Source of the DNA: Plasmodium relictum
Taxonomy: Eukaryota; Apicomplexa; Aconoidasida; Haemosporida; Plasmodiidae
Reading direction: 5' to 3'
Assembly (NCBI RefSeq): GCF_900005765.1
Contig: NC_041688.1
Span: 62,001-126,000, forward strand
DNA: 64,000 nt
The translations under genes were made by a program, and so were the position numbers. Positions 4,068 through 58,189 of this stretch are shown here, one piece after another. The notes under the pieces were generated by a model, which had not been told where the DNA came from, ran no database searches, and saw only the letters and a list, made by a program, of their open reading frames with translations. Positions within the stretch are counted from its first letter, which is position 1. Each line of letters opens with the position of its first letter.

Positions 4068-5439
4068 GAATATAAGGTTGGAGAATACCACATATATTCA
4101 TAAATATATATATATATATATATATAGAATTTATTAATATCTTTACGAAAGCGAATTCTATAAGTTTTTGTTTTAAAAGTTAGAACTAAATTTGTTCTAT
4201 TGAAAAAAAAGTTAAAGTTTTTATTTTTTGTTTTATATATATCATTTTATATTTTACTAATATAAAGAAAAAACTGAATGGAAAGCTTTTGTACTTAAAT
4301 ATACAAAATTAATAATTAAATTTTTAAATTTTTATAATAATTATATTATGTTTAAATTATATGAACTAATATATATGTATATATAATAGAATTGTTTTTT
4401 TTTTTTTTTTTTCCCCCCCTCAAATGATTTATTTTTATATAGAAAGTAATCTTAATATGACTCTAGAAATATCTATAATAATATAAATTATTTTTTTCAG
4501 ATTATGGCTATAGTTTTTAAAAAAATCATAAGTAAAATATATTTTAATTTTTATTTTTTTTTTATATTTATATATTATAATTAAATATATATGTTTACAA
4601 TAAATTGATAAAAAAAAAAAAAAAAAAAAAAAAAGGAAAAATATATATTAATTAATATTGCGTTTTGTATACAATTTGTAAATGAAAAAAAAGTTTTTTT
4701 AAAGTCTTATACATAAAAGTTTATAAAAGAATTCTTATAAATTTACAATAATTAAAATAATAGAAATTCCCAATAATTAACATTAAAATTAGATGAAAGC
4801 ATTAGATTCAAATTAAAATATTTATTATTACTAATATTACTACACTTATTTATAATTGAGTATTATATTCTAAAAGTTTAAAAATTATAATCTTTTTTTC
4901 TGTTTATAAAAGATTATTTTATATACTTCTTTTAATAAGAATATTATAAGTAATAAACAATAATAATAATGTGATAAAAATAGAATAATAAGAATAAATT
5001 AATTAAAAGAGTATAATTAAGATTATATGATTAAAGTAGAACAAAAAAAAAAAATAAAATAAAATAAAATAAAATAAAATAAAATAAAATAAAATAAAAT
5101 AAAATAATAAAATTAAGAAAATAATATAAAGGTAAAACAATAAAAATATTACAACTAAAATTAAAAATTTAGATTGATTATTAGAATAGAAAAAATATTA
5201 TGATAAAAATATGAAAAACAATTTAATGAAAATATGATGATGAAAACTATATTAATAGAAAAAAATAAAAAATAAAAAAATAAAATAATATAAATTACTT
5301 AAAGTATAACTATTAAATTATAAATAAAATAAGTTAAGAATAATGTAAAAATTCATCTAAATAAAAAATATATATAAATATAGCTGTCTAAAATAGGAAA
5401 TATATAATTTTTTTTTTATTCATCAATTATACATAAATT
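4068..5439. other. intergenic, convergent 3' ends
   Basis: Spacer between the convergent 3822 gene and the PGM-like gene. It holds long A/T tracts and a pentanucleotide repeat (listed separately). No coding or RNA signal was found. Confidence 0.55.
5051..5105. repeat. AAAAT pentanucleotide microsatellite
   Basis: Eleven uninterrupted AAAAT units between the stop codons of two convergent genes. Confidence 0.95.
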
Positions 5440-7706
5440 TTATATAACAACAGTTGGATTTTCTGTTCCTATGAAATCTTTTATTTTACACATTTTTAAT
5501 CCAGCATAAATTAAATCTTCAAGAATTTCATGATTTGTTGAAAAGATACTTTCTTTTTCAAATTTTTCAAAGTAAATTCTAATAGTACTTTGTTCTATTG
5601 TATCTTTTGATTTCCTATAAATTACTGAAGATTCATTTTCAAATGTAACTTTAATTCCTTCATCATTATATATTTCTTTTGAAACATGATCTATATACAC
5701 AAAAGTTTCCATTTTTTTTATTCTATGATTAGGGTTATTTATATTTAGTTCTTTCACATTTTCATAAAGAGGTAATTCATTTTTCACTATTTTGTTTAAA
5801 AATTCAAACATCTTATCACATTTATTTATATCCACTTGTTCAAAATCATATCTTGTGTAATAAGATCTTCCATATTCCTTCCAAAATTCGTGAACAATAT
5901 CTTTTACAGAAATAAAATCATTGGAATTATCATAATTTTTTACTACATTGTTCTTATATGCTAATATAGATAACCAACATAAAATAGTAAATAATCCATC
6001 TTTTTCTCTAATTAAACTACTTCCTATACCAAATGATTCCTCCCCGAAAATAGAAATTTTATTGTCATTTATTAAATTAATAAAGTATTTATATCCTGGT
6101 GGTGTTTCATAAATATTTTTGTTCATTTTTTCAATAACTTTATCAACAGCTTTAGACGTGGGGTAGGATTTAGCTACGCCTAAAAAATTATTTTTAAAAT
6201 AAGGAATACATTTTTCTGCATAATGAGTAATAATAGCAAGATTGTCACAAGGATTGACGAAAATATTTCTTCCTAGTATCATGCATCTGCTTCCATCGGA
6301 ACTGCAAACACCAGCTAAATCTGGTATTACTTCATTTATGTTTTTCATTTCTTTGTTTTCACTATCTTTTTTTTCATCTTTTTTTTTATTCTGAATAACA
6401 TCTATTTTCATTATATCAACTAATTTTCTTGCATGTATTAAATTTGGGTCAGGTATTAATTTATTGAAATCGTTTTTATTATCTAAATTGAAAAAAAATT
6501 TATCATTTAGTTTTAATTCATTTACAAATAATTCTTTGGCATATTCACCTGTTGCTCCATGAAATGCATCGTAGGCGAAAATAAAATTCTTATTTCTTGT
6601 TAATTTTTTAATTAAATCAAAATCAAAAGCTTTTTTCATTAGATTAATCCAATCTTCAACAGGATTAACAATTTCAACAATTAAATTGTCAACTGTCTCC
6701 ACTTTTATTTTATCCAACATTATTTTATCTATTCTCTTCTTTTTTATACAGTCTATTTTTAATGTTTCCTTGTGAAATTTATGTAAAAATTCTCCATTTG
6801 GTTTATTATCGTCATATTTATTAACCTTTATTCCAAAAACTCCGTTTTTCCCTCCTGCATTATGAGATGCTGTTAATATTATACTAGCAAAGCACTTTTT
6901 TATAGGATGTGTAGAATCATTTTTTTCATTTATATTTTTTATAATTGAATCGCATGCGGCAGCAGTTGCTAATCCTTTATGAGGAATTATCACATGCTTT
7001 ATTTCATTACCAGCGGCAATTTCACAAATTATGTGAATAGCCTTGTCAGAAAAATATCTCCCATCACTACTAATTAATAAAATATCTCTTCTTAGAGTTT
7101 CTTTATCTATTATATTAAATAAAGATTGTATAATATTATGTAGATAATTATGTTTCATAAATATTTTAGTTTCTTTTCTCAATCCATATGGCCCAAATTT
7201 TTGATCATCATATGGATTCGTTTTTATTATAGTAAATCCATCTTTATCTTTTTCTCGAAAAAATCCTTCAGTGCAATCAATTTCATGAAGTTTTTTTTCA
7301 CAACATGTAATGTAATTACCTTTTAAAAAAATAAAATAAAATATATATGTATATATTATGTAGTTCTTATATAATTAAAACAGAAATAAATTATTCTATC
7401 AATTTAATATATATATATAAGGTTAAATAAAAAAATTTTTTTTTTTTTAATTATTATTATAATTCTTATTTTTATTTTCAATTTTCAATAGTATTTCATC
7501 AATATCGTTTCTATAGATTACAGTTTTTTTCTCAGTGATATATACCTTTAGATTATATGATATATATATCCTTATTTTATTTTAACAAAAATGCAAATAT
7601 ACACATTTATATAGATATAGATATAAATATAATTTTTAATAAAATATATAATTTTTATACTTGAGGAATCAATGATAATTTTTTTTTTTTTTTCATACTT
7701 ACCCAT
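5440..7706 (-). CDS. phosphoglucomutase-1/parafusin family protein, probable pseudoenzyme
   Basis: Two exons: 7706-7703 (just ATGG) and 7319-5440, joined in phase 1 across a 383-base intron (donor GTAAGT; acceptor AAAAG); 627 residues. The join reads MGNYITCCEKK, a textbook N-myristoylation signal (Gly2, Thr6) with Cys7/Cys8 for palmitoylation. The body aligns end to end with PGM1: 'NPYDDQK..PYGLRK' near residue 40, catalytic serine loop 'TASHNAGG' (Ser153), metal loop at 341-346 reading SSDGSR where PGM1 has DGDGDR, sugar loop 'GEESFG' at 427-432, and domain 4 ending 'TVVI'. Two of three Mg-ligand aspartates are serine, and the domain-4 phosphate loop (RLSGTGS in PGM1) is RKSKDTI. Family members convert glucose-1-phosphate and glucose-6-phosphate; activity here is doubtful. 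Closest idea: a membrane-tethered parafusin-related protein. Confidence 0.9.
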
Positions 7707-10595: not shown

Positions 10596-11492
10596 AAATT
10601 ATGAGTTTGTGTTGATAAATATAAATTCGTTTTTTAAAGTACCATTAAATATTTCTATATATTTATGCATATGTTAAAATAATAAATGGTTATATATTTA
10701 TAAATATGAAATTTAAAATATAGATGTAATCATTATATGAATTTTATGAATAAATATAGATATGTAAATATAAATTTGCATAAATAATTGTATAAAACAT
10801 TGATGCATCAATACATATATATTATTAATTCCTAGTTATAAGTAAACTTTCAAATACATATAATTATAAATAGAAATATATTTTCATATATTTTTATAAT
10901 TATTATTTAAATGTATCTTTAATTATATATATAGTATATAAATTATTTTTATTGATGTGTTCATTTATAATAAGCAGAAAAAAAGGAAAAAAAACATTTT
11001 TTTTTTTTTTTTGTTATATTTTTTAGCTTAAGAAGATTAACTAGTTCAAAGGGATGGAAATTAAGTAAAAGATTTAGTTTATTAAATTATTTATGGTTTA
11101 TAACAGGAACAGTTGTTATGGTTGTCACAAGAAAATATACAAAAAATTTTTATCTTTGGTTTATTTCTTGGACTATTATTTTGTCATGCATATTTAGGGT
11201 ATTTTTTACAATTATTTGGTTTTGTTTTTTTTTTCCTTATAATCAAAATATACCAAAAAAAAAAAAGGGAGTACCAAAGCAATTTTTTTCTGAAATGCAT
11301 TCTTTTAAATATTCTCCAGATATGAATTTAAAAAATGAATCTTGTTCTATTTGCTTATCCGAATTTGTTGAAAAAGAAGATATTATTCAACTAAGATGTT
11401 TACATGACTTTCATACAAAATGTGCGAAAAAATGGCTATCACAAAGGAGACAATGCCCTTTATGTCAAAGAGATGTTATGAAAGGAAACTGA
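9883..11492 (+). CDS. multi-pass membrane RING-H2 E3 ubiquitin ligase
   Basis: Three exons, 9883-9942, 10166-10491 and 11027-11492, joined in phases 0 and 2, giving 283 residues. Exon 1 encodes 20 residues (donor GTAAGT). Four to five hydrophobic segments follow ('ISAIISISTSF', 'WWIVINSILQL', 'YLWFITGTVVMVV', 'FISWTIILSCIF'). The C-terminal RING-H2 domain, about residues 235-277, has the order C-x2-C ... C-x-H-x2-H-x2-C-x10-C-x2-C, so all eight zinc ligands are present. Membrane RING-H2 proteins of this layout act in ER/endomembrane protein turnover; the substrate is unknown. It diverges from the PGM-like gene and converges on the coiled-coil gene. Confidence 0.9.
10561..10592. repeat. (AT)n microsatellite in intron 2 of the RING-H2 gene
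   Basis: Uninterrupted AT dinucleotides a short way downstream of the exon 2 donor at 10492. Confidence 0.9.
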
Positions 11493-40714: not shown

Positions 40715-41805
40715 ATATACTTAATTTATAATTTGCTTTTTTTTTTTTTGCTATTTCATGAAAAAAAAAATTGGAATAAAAAGCAGTATCTACGTCTATA
40801 TACTTAAAAAAGAAAAAAAAAAAAAAAGCAAATATATAATACATAATTTAATATCGTGCAAATATTTAAGAAACACTAATTAAAAGTATTTATAAAAATA
40901 AAGAAAACATTATATATATATATATATATAAATTAAAAAATAAATAAATAAATAATAATATGTTTAACTCCTTTTTTATAATTATTTTTAATTTTCCATT
41001 TTTATTGTTTTTTTAAATTAATCTCTTATAAAAGGAATCTAAGAATAAGGTTTTTTAAGGAACATAATAAAAATAACTATATTTTAATTTTTAAATTTAT
41101 GAAATGAAATAAATTAAGTTTTTTTTGATAATAATTTGTTTTCACTTTATAAAATTGTATATTTTTTTACATTATTATTTACATTACCATTTTTTATTTA
41201 TTTTTAATACTAAAATTATAAATTTTTTTTTTTTTTTTTTTTTGGAATTATTAAAAATACTAGTAACTAAATGCTAAATTAATTATTTTTTCATTATTAG
41301 AAAGAATGATTATTTTCAAATCATATATAGAAAATATACTTTATTTTATTATTTCTTTCAATAAAATACATATTTTAACTGTATATGAAATATAAGAATA
41401 TATTTATATAAACTTTTCTATTTTTTCTTATGTTTATTTTTTAGCTCATTTTTTTTAAAAATTAAACTGAATTTTCCTTTTTTTTTTTTTTTTAAACTAT
41501 AAATTATTTTTTTTTATGTATTTATAAAAATTTTCATAATTTATATTTTTTTTTTTTATTAAGTTCCATATTGGACTGTTTAATATATTTTTTAAAATAC
41601 AATAAGTTGTCTTTTTTTAATTGTGTTAATATTTTTAAGATGATATTTAAAAAAGATACCGTTTCTCTTTTTAAAACTATATATTACTAACGAAAAACAT
41701 ATATATATATATATATGTAATATAAAACAATAAAATTATATTTTAATGTAACTAGATGATTGCATAATTATATTTTATAATTTCTTTTTTTTTTTTCTTA
41801 TAAAG
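40715..41805. other. intergenic, tandem genes
   Basis: About 1.1 kb of A/T tracts between two plus-strand genes. The minus-strand frame at 40656-40844 overlaps the thioredoxin last exon and is spurious. Confidence 0.55.
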
Positions 41806-43929
41806 ATGGATAATTTATTAAAATACAGAAAATTTATTGTTTTAGAAATACTACTGATTATATGTACATATAGAATAATTTCAAATATTTTTAATAATTT
41901 ATTAAATAAGGATTGTACAAAAAGAAACATATATGTAGAAGGATATAACTGGAATGTATTAGAAAAATGGAAATCAATAAATAAAAAGGAAAAATTAGAA
42001 TATAAAATAAATTATAATATTGGGTTAAGTATAGATGCAGAAATTGGTGATTTTGGTGATTATAATTCAGATGTAAAAACTGATCTAATTTTATATAGAT
42101 ATGATGAAGATAAATTAGTTAGTACTATATTTGTGTACATATTTAGTGTGAAAGAAAATAAATTTGTTTATTTTACTGAAGTTAGCTTTCAAGGAAAAAT
42201 TATCAATATTACAGCAATAGACTTAAATTTCGATGGCTCCTTAGATATTTTAGTTTTATTTTCTGATCCCCAAAATAGTAGTAGTAATAAATATTATATA
42301 TGTGCCTTTTTTCAAAATGAAAATGAACACTTAGAAGAAGCATGGAATTCAAAAAAAAAAGAAGAATTAAATGAAAGTATATCATATAATGAGAAAAATG
42401 ATATATATTATTCTAATATACATCCACTAGTTTGTGATATAAATAATGATGGATTACCCGATATTATCGGTCAGCAAATAAATAGTAATAACTCTTTTTT
42501 TAGGTTTGTTTGGATTAATAATAAAACTGGTTTTAAAAGTATTCTGTGGGAAAATATGGATATTTTTAAATATAAAGAATTGGGTGAGATTAGTAACCCT
42601 AATTCTAGTGCTATAGTAGATATAAATGGAGATTGTAAATCGGATTTAGTATTTACTATAATAAATAATGAAAATAAAATTTCTTTAGAGATTTGGTTAA
42701 ATAAAATTGTAGATGGCAAAAGTGTATATATAAAAGATGCTAAGAATTATGTTCTTCCCGTAAACTCTCTGCAAGTTTTATTTGGTGATTTTAATGCAGA
42801 TGGATCAATTGATTTAGTTGTACCTACTTGTGTTAAAAAACCTCTATGTAATAATTGTTGTGTTCAGGATGATAAAATTTACTTTATTCCAAATATACAA
42901 AAAAAAATATGTGATAAATCATGGAAAAAAGTAGATGAAACCAAATGTAGACCTGCATCTAATTTATGTTCAGAAAGTGATTTTGAGTTTAAGGAAAATT
43001 TAAATAATGATTTTATATCTATAGTCGATATGAATGATTTACATTTATCTGGAAATTCTAATTATCCTTATTATTTGAGTGTTGGCGATATAGATAATGA
43101 TGGTTATTTAGATTTATTAATAACATTAAGAAATGATAAAGGTAATAAATATGTAAGAATATATAAAAATGAGTTCAAAGAATATGATGAACAACATGGT
43201 TTAGAAATAAGAGGTTTTTATAATTTTTATCAATTTGTTACTTCACCTAATGAATCAGTAACTGATGTATATAATGCAGCATTTTTTGATATTTTTGAAA
43301 ATGGTGTTTTAGATATATTAATATTTGGAAAGTATATAAATGATAATAAAAAAACTAAATATGCGGCTGTTGGATTCGTAAGGGATAATGAAACAGATTC
43401 TTTATTTTTAAAGTCTACTGCATTAAATGGAATATGTGTAAATGATTGTTATCAGAAAAATGAAAAAATTATAACTAAAACATTTGGTGGGAATGCGCAT
43501 GGTCCAGCATTTAAAATAACAGTAATTGATGTTAATGGAATTAAAACAAGTAGAATTGGAATTCAAAAAAGTCAGTCAGCTCACTCTCCACTTCAACTAC
43601 CTTATGTTTTTTTTGGTTTAGGTAGAACAAGCAATTATGTAGAAGAATTTTATGTAGGTATGCCAACGCATGAAAAGAAATATTTTAATATGTGGGTTTC
43701 TATAATTCCGAATTCTCACATTATTGTTATTCCTTATCCTTTAAATGATTCTAATAAATGGCAAATTCAACTTTCTGTGAATCCTTCAAAAAAAATTTAT
43801 TCCATAATATATATTACTCTTATATGCTTAACTGTTATTGGAATACTTATTTTTATTCTAGACAGAAAAGAAAAAATTGAAGATTCAAAGGATGAACTTG
43901 GATTTAAAAGTCATTTCGTTATAGGATAA
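41806..43929 (+). CDS. ITFG1/LINKIN-like FG-GAP membrane protein
   Basis: Single exon, 707 residues. An N-terminal hydrophobic segment (about 9-28, signal anchor or signal peptide) leads into a large extracellular/lumenal part with FG-GAP/VCBS blades. Several carry calcium loops of DxDxDG type: 'DLNFDGSLDIL', 'DINNDGLPDI', 'DFNADGSIDLV', 'DIDNDGYLDLL'. Near the C-terminus is the ITFG1-typical 'LPYVFFGLGRTSNYVEEF', then a membrane helix (about 664-685) and a short cytosolic tail of about 22 residues. ITFG1/TIP/LINKIN proteins are type I receptors of seven-bladed propeller shape found across eukaryotes. Cys pairs in the middle blades ('CNNCC', 'CVND C') suggest disulphides in the secretory path. 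The parasite role is not shown by sequence. Confidence 0.9.
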   Translation: MDNLLKYRKFIVLEILLIICTYRIISNIFNNLLNKDCTKRNIYVEGYNWNVLEKWKSINKKEKLEYKINYNIGLSIDAEIGDFGDYNSDVKTDLILYRYDEDKLVSTIFVYIFSVKENKFVYFTEVSFQGKIINITAIDLNFDGSLDILVLFSDPQNSSSNKYYICAFFQNENEHLEEAWNSKKKEELNESISYNEKNDIYYSNIHPLVCDINNDGLPDIIGQQINSNNSFFRFVWINNKTGFKSILWENMDIFKYKELGEISNPNSSAIVDINGDCKSDLVFTIINNENKISLEIWLNKIVDGKSVYIKDAKNYVLPVNSLQVLFGDFNADGSIDLVVPTCVKKPLCNNCCVQDDKIYFIPNIQKKICDKSWKKVDETKCRPASNLCSESDFEFKENLNNDFISIVDMNDLHLSGNSNYPYYLSVGDIDNDGYLDLLITLRNDKGNKYVRIYKNEFKEYDEQHGLEIRGFYNFYQFVTSPNESVTDVYNAAFFDIFENGVLDILIFGKYINDNKKTKYAAVGFVRDNETDSLFLKSTALNGICVNDCYQKNEKIITKTFGGNAHGPAFKITVIDVNGIKTSRIGIQKSQSAHSPLQLPYVFFGLGRTSNYVEEFYVGMPTHEKKYFNMWVSIIPNSHIIVIPYPLNDSNKWQIQLSVNPSKKIYSIIYITLICLTVIGILIFILDRKEKIEDSKDELGFKSHFVIG

Positions 43930-49301: not shown

Positions 49302-50569
49302 TCCTATTAAATTTTTTTTTTTTTTTTTTTATATAAAAATTTGATTGACATTTATTTTCTAATTGCTTAAAAAGAAGTGAAATTAAATACTGGTAAAAAA
49401 ATAATATGTAAATTATTATTATAAAAGTGTATCTTAAATTATTCTTTAAAAATGCCTTAATTTTATAATTAAAAAAAAATGTAGGAATTATTATAGTACA
49501 ACAAAAATAAAAATAGAGTTAACATATTAATTTTTATATATCTACAAAAGGTTTACTATAAATATCATATTTTTAAGTATTTATTTACTTCCATAAAAAA
49601 TTGAATACATAAATTACTTTTACTAAGAAAATTTTACAAGCTAATATATTATTTATTAAAAATAGATACATGATATTTGATTAGTATTATTGCTATTGCT
49701 AATATTTTTTTTTTTTTTTTTTATAATTTGCATTAATTGTTTAAATAATATTTTATTTTATGTTTTTTTATATTTTAATTAAATTTTTCTCTTTATACAA
49801 CTTTTATCAATTAAATTTTTTAATTTCTTTTAAACCTTTTTTATTTTTTTTTAATTTTAAAAAATAATATATTTAAAATTTTTGTAAATATCATAACATT
49901 TATAAATTTAATATTATATAAAAAACATTTATATAATTTATTTAATCTTTCCTTTTTCCTATTTTTTTTCTTTGATATATAAAAATATTTACAAGTAAAT
50001 ACCTTAACATTAATATTACTTTTCATAATTTTTTGTTCTATTTTATGAGTTTATTACAAAAAAATAATTAATAATAAAAAAAAATAATACATGATAATTT
50101 ACATAAACTATATCATATGGTATGTAAATGAAACATTGTAAATATAATGAACTCTATGTAATGTATAGGTCAAATGTAAATGCAAAAGAAATATATGAAT
50201 AATCTATAAGTAATATACTTATAAAAATACTGCTCTAAGGAATTATAATGTTAATATAGAATAATAAATGTTAAATATTTTTTAAGTTCCATTTTCATTT
50301 TATTGTTATATTAAAATAAATTTGACTTAATAATTTCAAAAATTAAAGTAAAAAATATCTTAAACATTATATGTATATAGATAATTATTTTATGGCATTC
50401 AAGTTATAGAGAAAAAAAATAGTATATATTCATATCAATAAGATAATTTGAGAGATTAAAGATATATTTAGAATTTTTAAATATTAAATTAAAAATATCT
50501 AAGAATTTTTTTTTTGTATGTTTTTACTATAATTAGAAAAACAAAAAAAAAAAAAAAAAAAGCAAAAAA
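49302..50569. other. intergenic, tandem genes
   Basis: About 1.3 kb of A/T tracts. The minus-strand frame at 49841-50026 is Lys-rich tract translation. Confidence 0.55.
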
Positions 50570-51178
50570 ATGTTTACTTTATGTAAAGGGTACAGTGATG
50601 ATGAAGAAGAGGAAAAAGACTTAGCTGATTCGTTAAAAGAGAAGAAACAATCATTAGAAGAAAAGATAAGTTACTATAAATTAAAAGGAAAAGATGAAAG
50701 GGGGCACATTACTATATATACTAACTTGGGAGATTTTGAAATTGAATTATATTGGTATCATAGCCCTAAAACATGCTTAAATTTTTATACACTTTGTAAT
50801 ATGGGTTATTATGACAATACAATATTTCACAGAGTTATACCTAATTATATAATACAAGGTGGGGACCCAACAGGAACTGGAAAAGGTGGAAAAAGTATTT
50901 ACGGGGAATATTTTGAAGATGAAATAAATAATGAATTGAAACATACAGGAGCTGGTATATTAAGTATGTCAAATAATGGTCCAAATACAAATACGTCTCA
51001 ATTTTTTATAACTTTATGCCCTTTACCACATTTGGATGGAAAACATACAATTTTTGCTAGGGTTAGCAAAAATCTGACTTGTATAGAAAATATTGCAGCT
51101 GTTCAAACTACAGCAACTAACAAACCAATTTTTGATGTGAAAATATTACGAACATCAACAGCTATTAATGTTGACTAA
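50570..51178 (+). CDS. CYP23: cyclophilin-type peptidyl-prolyl isomerase (PPIL1-like)
   Basis: Single exon, 202 residues. Residues 1-42 are an acidic then charged extension ('YSDDEEEEKDLADSL'). The cyclophilin domain covers 45-198: 'GDFEIELYWYHSPKTCLNF', catalytic Arg88 in 'FHRVIPNYIIQGGD', 'GILSMSNNGPNTNTSQFF' with Gln144, and 'LDGKHTIFARV'. The family's cyclosporin-contact tryptophan (Trp121 of CypA) is His154. PPIL1-type cyclophilins are spliceosomal, acting near SKIP/Prp45; the lack of a targeting peptide fits a nuclear/cytosolic place. The gene name follows the syntenic P. falciparum gene from memory. Confidence 0.92.
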   Translation: MFTLCKGYSDDEEEEKDLADSLKEKKQSLEEKISYYKLKGKDERGHITIYTNLGDFEIELYWYHSPKTCLNFYTLCNMGYYDNTIFHRVIPNYIIQGGDPTGTGKGGKSIYGEYFEDEINNELKHTGAGILSMSNNGPNTNTSQFFITLCPLPHLDGKHTIFARVSKNLTCIENIAAVQTTATNKPIFDVKILRTSTAINVD

Positions 51179-55745: not shown

Positions 55746-58189
55746 TTAATATTTTCCTTTTATTGGTATTGTTTCAGATGTTTCTTCATTATAACCTTGA
55801 TTATAACCTTTTACAAAATTTATACCATCTCCTCTTCTATTGTCTAAAATAATTCCAAAAATATTATACATGTATGTTTATATAAAAAGTAAAATGTATA
55901 TAAATTAATATGCTATAAAATATTTATATAAGACATATACATAAAAATATGTAAATCTATTTATATACTCATTTAAAATAATTGAAACATTGTGCAATTA
56001 AAACACAAGGGAAAATATAATACGAACTTTTATAGATTTAAAATTATAATGAAAAAAAAAATTATTTATATATATTCTAATAAAAAAAGATGTGTATATA
56101 TATTTTTTTATTTTATACTTTTGAGAAATTATATTTATAATATATATAAACAAAAATAATAAAAAAAAAAAATGGAAAAAATTAAAAATAACCAATTGGT
56201 AGAAACCATAAAAAGGGAGAATCACCAAAAACATCTTTGAAATTTCCGTATATGCCTTTATTATAATATTTCTGTAATTCAAAATTTTTAATAAAATATA
56301 AAAAAATTATTAATAATTAAAATATTATAAAAATTATGATATTTTTTAAAATAACTAAAAAAAAAAATTATTACTGAATAAGATTGATTTTGGTAATTTG
56401 TCTGCTTTTCACAAAATTCTATTGTTGTCATTGCCTTAATCATTAACCTTAAAAAAAAAAAAAAAGAAAAAATTTTAATCAAATTATTATATATATCAAA
56501 AGTATATCATTTTATTATATTATGTATTTGGATAACCATATATGAAAAATTAAAAAGCACGTTACAATTAAAGCTAAGATTGAGTTTAGTGTTTCTCCAA
56601 ATAAAAGTAAGAGCATTTCACCAAAAGGTATCTATAAAAAAAAGGATGAATTTTTTAAATTATTAAAGTAATTTATGTTCATCCAAAAATTATAAAATAT
56701 AAATATAATATGTACTCTTTATAAACATAATATACTATTATAAGTTATATCAATTTTATTAATACTGTATATATATATATATACAAAATGAAATGTAAAA
56801 TGTATGGTACAATTATATTACTTTTCTATTTTTAATAGTTTCTTTAACAGAATTGAACATAGTAATTGAAACGAAAATACTAGTAATACAGCAATAAATT
56901 AATGAAAGCATGAAATATTTGTGATTTTTCCATCCAACACAATTATATATCCAAGGACAATGATGATCCATTTTTAAAACACATGTCTTGCAGACACGGC
57001 AATGATGAGTTCTATCAGGTTTGTATTTACAACACCATTTACAATATCTTCTTTCTCCGGTTTTTTTTTTTTCTAATAAATAATTTTCAATATCATCTGA
57101 ATAATTTTCTTGGAAATCATTAAACACCCACTCTTCTGTATTAGGTATAGATCCAGGTGGTACTATAATTGATAAAATATAATTCACCAAATACATGATC
57201 AAAAAAAAATGAAAAATAATTATCTCAATTATCCCCCTATATAAAATATAATATATATATATATAAAATATTGCACACATTCATTTTAATGATCACTTTT
57301 TTTTTTTTTTTGATAAGTTATCTTAATAAAATGAATATGAAAATACCTTTTCAGGTCATAGTTTATGTAAACTTTTTTATAATCTTTAAGTATTAATGGT
57401 AAACAATGATACTATAAAAAAGAGAAAATTTCATATTTTCATATGTCTATTTTAAATGATAACATATATTTATTAAAATAGTTATCCGCTTAAACTAATT
57501 TAAATTTATATTTTTCAATTTTCTATAATTATTTTTATCATTTTGTTTTACATAAAAATTGTTAAAATATATATAATGTAAATAAGAAAAAAATAAAATA
57601 ATATATGCATAATTTTTTTTTATATGTAATTGTTTTATAAATAAGGAGTTACCATTATATATATTAGATATATTCCTAATAGTAAAATAAATATAAAAAT
57701 TACTGGTAAAAAAAGAATACATCTATTTTTATTAATTTGCATTGTATGTGAAGTATCTATATGCTTGTTCTTTATTTCTTCATTTTTAATATTATTTGTT
57801 TTATCTAATACTATGCTATCTTTAATTTCTTCTTTTATGATTTTTGTAAAACTTATAATGTTTTTATCGTTAGAATATCTCCTATTTTTATCATTTCTAT
57901 TTTTTTTATATTTATTTTTCTAAAGTAAAAAAAAAAAAAAATCACCTAAATTGAATATTGAAAATATTAGTAAAAATTAAGTAATGTAATTATAATATTA
58001 ATAGATATAAAGATAACAATAACTTTAAATATAATTTTGTATGAATTTTTCTTTTTAAAAATTGTTGTCACATACCTTTTTCTTTTTAGTTTTATCGTCT
58101 TTAGATTCTTTTTGATCAGACACTATTGTTATTTTACTATCATCAACTAAATTATTATGCTTATTATCCTCTCCATTTAAATTTGTCAT
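55746..58189 (-). CDS. DHHC7: DHHC palmitoyltransferase
   Basis: Eight exons: 58189-58076, 57919-57653, 57411-57347, 57236-56822, 56631-56537, 56447-56375, 56271-56193 and 55843-55746; all phases agree, 401 residues. Charged N-terminus of about 100 residues, helix 1 ('ILFLPVIFIFILLLGIYL'), helix 2 near 155-173, cytosolic Cys-rich domain with catalytic D239-H-H-C242 ('RTHHCRVCKTCVLKMDHHC'), helices 3 and 4, then the conserved 'TTIEFCEK' (TTxE) and a C-terminal 'GNFKDVFGD....WFLPIDNRRGDG'. Without the last exon the chain would stop after 'LPIGYF'; the splice at 56193 restores the family-type tail. It S-acylates membrane proteins. The number DHHC7 rests on remembered synteny with P. falciparum, not on a search. 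Confidence 0.92.

Follow-up and report, generated by a model that had tools for sequence, protein, structure and literature searches.

The window analysed here, a 64 kb stretch of Plasmodium relictum DNA (C10:62001-126000; 17.5% GC, in an assembly of 22.6 Mb and 514 contigs), encodes on its minus strand a PGM1-family protein whose predicted gene opens with an exon of four bases. On balance we favor the reading that this protein is an N-myristoylated, probably palmitoylated pseudoenzyme of the PGM1 family, tethered to a membrane on its cytosolic side; we infer its lipidation, location and function. Three points, all read from sequence, are new: Gly2 and Cys8 are conserved, the N-terminus is linked to the Met-Gly start seen in Toxoplasma-type PGM1, and the active site is degenerate. 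A Gly2 anchor common to Toxoplasma-type PGM1 and a degenerate Plasmodium relative would, if true, separate location from catalysis, and the scaffold hypothesis would be directly testable by loss of a single residue. A bird-infecting Plasmodium carries a PGM1-family gene, although the consulted sections of one study report only PGM2 for the genus and PGM1 as absent from mammalian Plasmodium (Saha et al. 2017, PMC5705807); another, in the sections consulted, places PGM1 in "some haemosporids" and finds none in most (Nie et al. 2021, PMC8781159).

A four-base first exon

Direct reading of the minus strand finds ATGG followed at once by the donor GTAAGT (7702-7697), as the preliminary description had it. 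The ten bases ATGGGTAAGT occur once in the 64 kb, both strands counted; in 100 dinucleotide shuffles they averaged 0.02 occurrences and were present in two. The intron (12.8% GC) ends in TTTTTTTAAAAG at 7320, and joining ATGG to 7319 gives an open frame of 627 residues, N-terminus MGNYITCCEKK, in which the Gly2 codon is split as G|GT. The phase-correct join yielding MGNYITCC that had been proposed for this site holds up, and the frame is identical to a database protein, P0002, flagged as encoded by the window (contig of 1,164,052 bases), so that the spliced gene model is already in use and not new. The earlier statement that simple ORF calling would miss this start is right for the mechanical ORF list, which begins at a TTG at 7182 (580 residues, 47 lost), but not for the database, where the spliced model exists. 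The frame stays open across 626 codons, which base composition alone would give with a probability of about 6.6e-30; GC is 24.8% overall and 35, 25 and 14% at codon positions 1, 2 and 3. Coordinates are collected in Table 1.

Table 1. Features of the PGM1-family gene, in window coordinates
Feature	Positions	Strand	Basis
Exon 1, ATGG: start codon plus base 1 of the Gly2 codon (predicted)	7703..7706	-	direct reading; joined frame open and identical to P0002
Phase-1 intron, 383 bases, GTAAGT ... TTTTTTTAAAAG (predicted)	7320..7702	-	sequence; ATGGGTAAGT expected 0.02 per window
Exon 2: PGM1-family coding sequence from the last two bases of codon 2 through codon 627 and the stop	5440..7319	-	sequence, Pfam
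N-terminal leash (predicted), residues 3-33, with Thr6, Cys7 and Cys8	7225..7317	-	pLDDT below 50 for residues 1-27; alignment
Loop 0, GPYGLRKE vs GTSGLRKK, Arg49 kept	7171..7194	-	alignment
Catalytic serine loop, TASHNAGG, Ser153 and His154 kept, Pro replaced by Ala	6850..6873	-	alignment
Metal loop, SSDGSR vs DGDxDR, two of three metal-binding Asp replaced by Ser	6286..6303	-	alignment
Sugar loop, GEESFGIGSSLIREKDG, largely kept	5995..6045	-	alignment
Phosphate loop, RKSKDTIEQSTIR vs RLSGTGSxGATIR, GTGS core lost	5578..5616	-	alignment

We scanned for other first exons, taking single ATG...GT exons shorter than 600 bases and no more than 2 kb upstream, six AG acceptors, and a frame open into the core. 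The scan returned 51 open combinations, and the top donor score, from a short list of our own rather than a trained matrix, was reached in five of them, every one ATGG|GTAAGT. Among the acceptors, T is most frequent in front of 7319 (7 of 12), but six T in a row also precede 7253; the choice of 7319 does not follow from sequence alone, and the relatives decide for it. It is preferred because in two close relatives, P0003 and P0004, the spacing between the Met-Gly start and the core is the same, without gaps, as in the 7319 join, and because the window-encoded database protein is identical to that join. That the gene model is wrong, with another first exon or acceptor in use and MGNYITCC a coincidence, we consider very improbable: on paper 51 in-frame combinations can be drawn, and exon 1 could also be joined to 7265 (again giving Met-Gly), 7253, 7247 or 7241, but no other candidate first exon has a GTAAGT, GTAAAT, GTATGT or GTAAGA donor, and the Met-Gly start of both relatives sits where the 7319 join puts it. 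The predicted splice of ATGG to 7319 is strongly supported as a real feature of the sequence, and we infer that it is used in vivo.

A pseudogene was rejected because the frame is open over 626 codons, and a bacterial contaminant because of the AT-rich window, the long contig and neighbors that include RING-H2 and ITFG1-like proteins. Neighboring plus-strand genes are those for the RING-H2 protein (10974-11492), the ITFG1-like FG-GAP protein (41752-43929) and a cyclophilin (50537-51178). Beyond the stop codon, at a distance of about 335 bases, lie eleven ATTTT repeats (5051-5105, minus strand).

The Met-Gly terminus and its relatives

After the window's own protein, the top matches were P0003 (51% identical) and P0004 (45%), encoded on contigs of 2330 and 2383 bases. 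Their N-termini, MGNLLAICDK and MGAYLSSCDK respectively, align without gaps to the window protein across the whole N-terminus. If their genes share the intron, these contiguous frames must derive from transcripts; alternatively the genes are intronless. In a tree of 35 proteins, built with the N-terminal columns left out, the three form one clade (100/100), and a further branch, with support of only 89/86, groups them with coccidia against the rest. The two degenerate proteins, from the window and P0004, are paired at 99/93, a pairing that is unsure given the odd composition of all three and the long branch of P0004. FYMINK/GARP ratios of 3.43, 2.27 and 2.51 in the three, vs 1.01 in Toxoplasma, reflect an AT-biased residue make-up, and P0003 and P0004 are therefore taken as haemosporidian proteins. 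A profile search built from the three sequences (7993 candidates scored, 1893 under the limit) placed the same three ahead of all others among the best 120 of the 1893; no Plasmodium-named protein occurs among those 120, which does not prove absence in the genus.

PGM1 enzymes had been said to start later than this protein, and the alignment agrees: relative to the short PGM1s in it, the window protein is extended at its N-terminus by about 30 residues. MGNYITCC fits an N-myristoylation pattern of PROSITE type, with Gly2 in a permitted context and a small residue at position 6, in keeping with the earlier proposal that Gly2 and Thr6 suit N-myristoyltransferase. Over residues 1-33 the three close relatives agree pairwise at 7, 11 and 10 of 33 positions, and only M1, G2, C8, K10 and I32 are invariant; Gly2 and one Cys are thus retained within a rapidly changing stretch, but the Cys pair is not. 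Gly2 and Cys8 occur in all three, Cys7 in the window protein's group only once, and neither Toxoplasma nor Neospora has Cys at 7 or 8. The Cys pair of the preliminary description is thus conserved at Cys8 but not at Cys7 in the close group.

The same genome has an N-myristoyltransferase (NMT) domain match on C13 (E 3.8e-67), with one in-frame TAG inside the match that presumably marks an intron. The window itself carries, besides the predicted palmitoylation target, an ORF (56813-57280, minus strand) that matches the DHHC palmitoyltransferase domain (PF01529, E 5.3e-30).

From these sequence features we regard N-myristoylation of the window protein at Gly2 as highly probable and palmitoylation of Cys8 as probable; these gradings, like those given below for loss of activity and for a scaffold role, are judgements and not computed values. 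In the favored scheme, splicing of the ATGG exon would supply Met and the first base of Gly2, Met would be removed during translation, and the parasite N-myristoyltransferase would acylate Gly2. A DHHC enzyme would then palmitoylate Cys8, possibly also Cys7, and a flexible leash of about 27 residues would hold the PGM1 body against the cytosolic side of a membrane. Judging from Toxoplasma PRP1, that membrane would most likely belong to the pellicle or to a secretory organelle. An alternative that overlaps with this scheme, and that we hold to be somewhat doubtful, has the protein myristoylated without stable palmitoylation, so that binding is weak and reversible and the protein partly cytosolic. 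It would suit Gly2 as the most widely kept feature, the lack of Cys at both positions in Toxoplasma and Neospora, and Toxoplasma PRP1, most of which is described, in the sections consulted, as equally split between soluble and membrane fractions (PMC5705807); the presence of Cys8 in all three close relatives, within a stretch that otherwise changes fast, speaks against this alternative.

The wider PGM1 family was surveyed in 266 proteins, the best 120 of each of three overlapping searches, with thousands more scored. Gly2 is present in ten of these 266: the three close relatives, four named sarcocystids, one moss and two other transcripts. Six fit the myristoylation pattern, namely the three close relatives, Toxoplasma, Neospora and one of the two other transcripts, from MMETSP. 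All four listed sarcocystid PGM1 proteins (Toxoplasma, Neospora, Besnoitia and Cystoisospora) have the MG start, and two of them, Cystoisospora MGGTSH and Besnoitia MGGKHR, have Gly2 without fitting the pattern. None of the seven eimeriid-type models listed for the Toxoplasma query (best 120 of 7993) has Gly2; one of the seven is truncated, and two were assigned by 81% and 87% identity to Cyclospora. The conserved MG...CC that had been predicted for orthologs is thus borne out for Gly2 in the close group and the sarcocystids, but fails for Cys7 and for Gly2 in the eimeriid-type models. Six of the latter (P0022, P0079, P0139, P0168, P0178 and P0194) differ just upstream of a common K/R-Y-[ST]-G-V (MPDKYSGV, MTNKYSGV, MFSVKYSGV, AGKYSGV), which suggests that a short first exon is unsettled there too.

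We tentatively raise the further possibility, which we think doubtful, that the MG anchor is ancestral to coccidian and haemosporidian PGM1, that membrane recruitment preceded loss of catalysis, and that some haemosporidia have the tethered pseudoenzyme only. In that case PGM1 would have come to sit on the cytosolic side of the membranes of the pellicle or of secretory organelles while its catalysis was not yet expendable, with only a tethered scaffold or sensor function left in some haemosporidia; the contested localization of Toxoplasma PRP1 to membranes would be accounted for by the same myristate. The eimeriid-type models without Gly2 weaken this idea; by our own count, not a computed one, a single gain plus an eimeriid loss requires as many character changes as two gains.

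The PGM1 body and its active site

Three Pfam models match over their cut-offs (PF02878, 60.9 bits; PF02880, 55.4; PF24947, 125.3), covering domains I and III and the PGM1-specific C-terminal domain; the domain II model had no match in the window protein at E 0.001. Paramecium parafusin, 1kfi, is the best solved match by sequence (E 1.4e-111) and the best PDB fold match by E-value (E 1.7e-59, TM 0.82 by query length), while some human PGM1 entries reach TM 0.83. An AlphaFold model built from 11 sequences has a mean pLDDT of 82.8, with residues 1-27 below 50, as expected of a leash. The model predicts that the four-domain PGM1 fold is kept, and the sequence, Pfam and fold matches together uphold the earlier assignment to a PGM1/parafusin-type body.

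The word "enzyme" in that assignment, taken as a claim of activity, is probably wrong. The TASHN serine of an active mutase is present, while the three-Asp metal loop and the SGTGS phosphate loop are absent, a degeneration that had been overlooked. Eight other members of the alignment share the same residue at 190 positions; of these, the window protein is changed at 67, P0003 at 43 and P0004, which has lost the Ser loop as well, at 87. With a degenerate Mg2+ site and phosphate loop, normal mutase activity is most likely absent from the window protein, a loss that the sequence makes very probable in our judgement. Because Ser153, His154, Arg49 and also Lys441 are kept, residual activity is possible. 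P0003, with GTSGLRKK, TASHNPGG and DADGDR, retains the greater part of the active site, with loop 0, the Ser loop and all three metal Asp in place, as well as the MG start and Cys8; the same anchor is therefore found on possibly active and probably inactive bodies, and it is not tied to loss of catalysis.

These retained residues, and P0003 with its retained loops, are what would favor a protein that is membrane-tethered yet catalytic, in which the anchor serves only to move a phosphohexomutase or phosphatase of slow or altered activity to a membrane. For the window protein we find this unlikely, as two of three metal Asp are Ser, GTGS is gone and loop 0 reads GPYG, and in P0004 the Ser loop has been lost too. 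More improbable still is a decaying gene without current function, its MG start a leftover. Eroding catalytic residues would fit decay, as would the description of Plasmodium as having PGM2 only (PMC5705807) and the report that most haemosporids are without PGM1 (PMC8781159), each in the sections consulted; against it stand the 626-codon open frame with the codon-position composition given above, the splice signals and the full-length predicted fold.

In the favored reading of a lipid-anchored pseudoenzyme, the tethered body would serve as a scaffold or as a sensor of sugar phosphates, and catalysis would be left to a separate enzyme of PGM2 type. An intact-looking gene of that type lies on C8 of the same genome, its motifs TASHNP, DPDADR and RASGTEPK being our basis for reading it as PGM2. 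The scaffold or sensor role itself is a plausible suggestion to which we give somewhat less than even chances. A third PGM-family domain I match occurs at G000:C9:950880-951005 (E 4.6e-6), perhaps a phosphoacetylglucosamine mutase.

Comparison with known systems

The P. falciparum gene PF3D7_0413500 we take to encode a phosphoglycerate-mutase-like protein. It is listed as an annotated P. falciparum PGM in the consulted part of PMC8808168. The main text of the Toxoplasma myristoylome paper, in the sections consulted, names neither PRP1 nor PGM (PMC7373427), that of the P. falciparum NMT-inhibition paper mentions neither phosphoglucomutase nor PF3D7_1012500 in the corresponding sections (PMC8544853), and a term search of the available text of a CDPK1-target paper found no PRP1 (PMC9882037). 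In the open-licence literature, as available and exclusive of supplementary tables, we found no report joining PGM1 or PRP1 with myristoylation; nor did that literature, as available, yield one joining P. relictum, P. gallinaceum and phosphoglucomutase.

Toxoplasma gondii PGM1/PRP1 (P0007) resembles the window protein in belonging to the PGM1 family and in having a Met-Gly N-terminal extension with an NMT-like context, MGAKAS. A further likeness to the proposed anchoring is its reported membrane pool and its signal in live cells, where, according to the sections consulted, PRP1-YFP marks the inner membrane complex (IMC) and an area over the rhoptries with no microneme overlap; the cytoplasmic signal of PRP1 antiserum in methanol-fixed Toxoplasma was regarded by the same authors as a fixation artefact (PMC5705807). 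The PRP1 gene, GPM1 (TGGT1_285980), encodes a product stabilised by micromolar Ca2+ in thermal profiling, per the part consulted of PMC9436416. Unlike the window protein, PRP1 has intact active-site motifs and no Cys at 7 or 8, and N-terminal identity between the two is 4 of 33.

Parafusin (pp63) of Paramecium (1kfi, 1kfq), the best match to the window protein by E-value in both sequence and fold, is related to PGM1 and has been linked to regulated exocytosis (PMC5705807). It aligns only from window-protein residue 34 on, and its metal loop, DGDADR, is intact. Vertebrate PGM5 (aciculin) has the PGM1 fold, is inactive, and plays a structural role at membrane-cytoskeleton sites; human PGM5 is an earlier example of the PGM1 fold serving a structural role in an inactive protein, although herring PGM5 keeps the three metal Asp, unlike the window protein (PMC7761743, sections consulted). 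Cryptosporidium CpPGM1B, another apicomplexan PGM1, also has additional N-terminal sequence and associates with membranes, but it relies on a signal peptide and has enzyme activity (PMC8781159).
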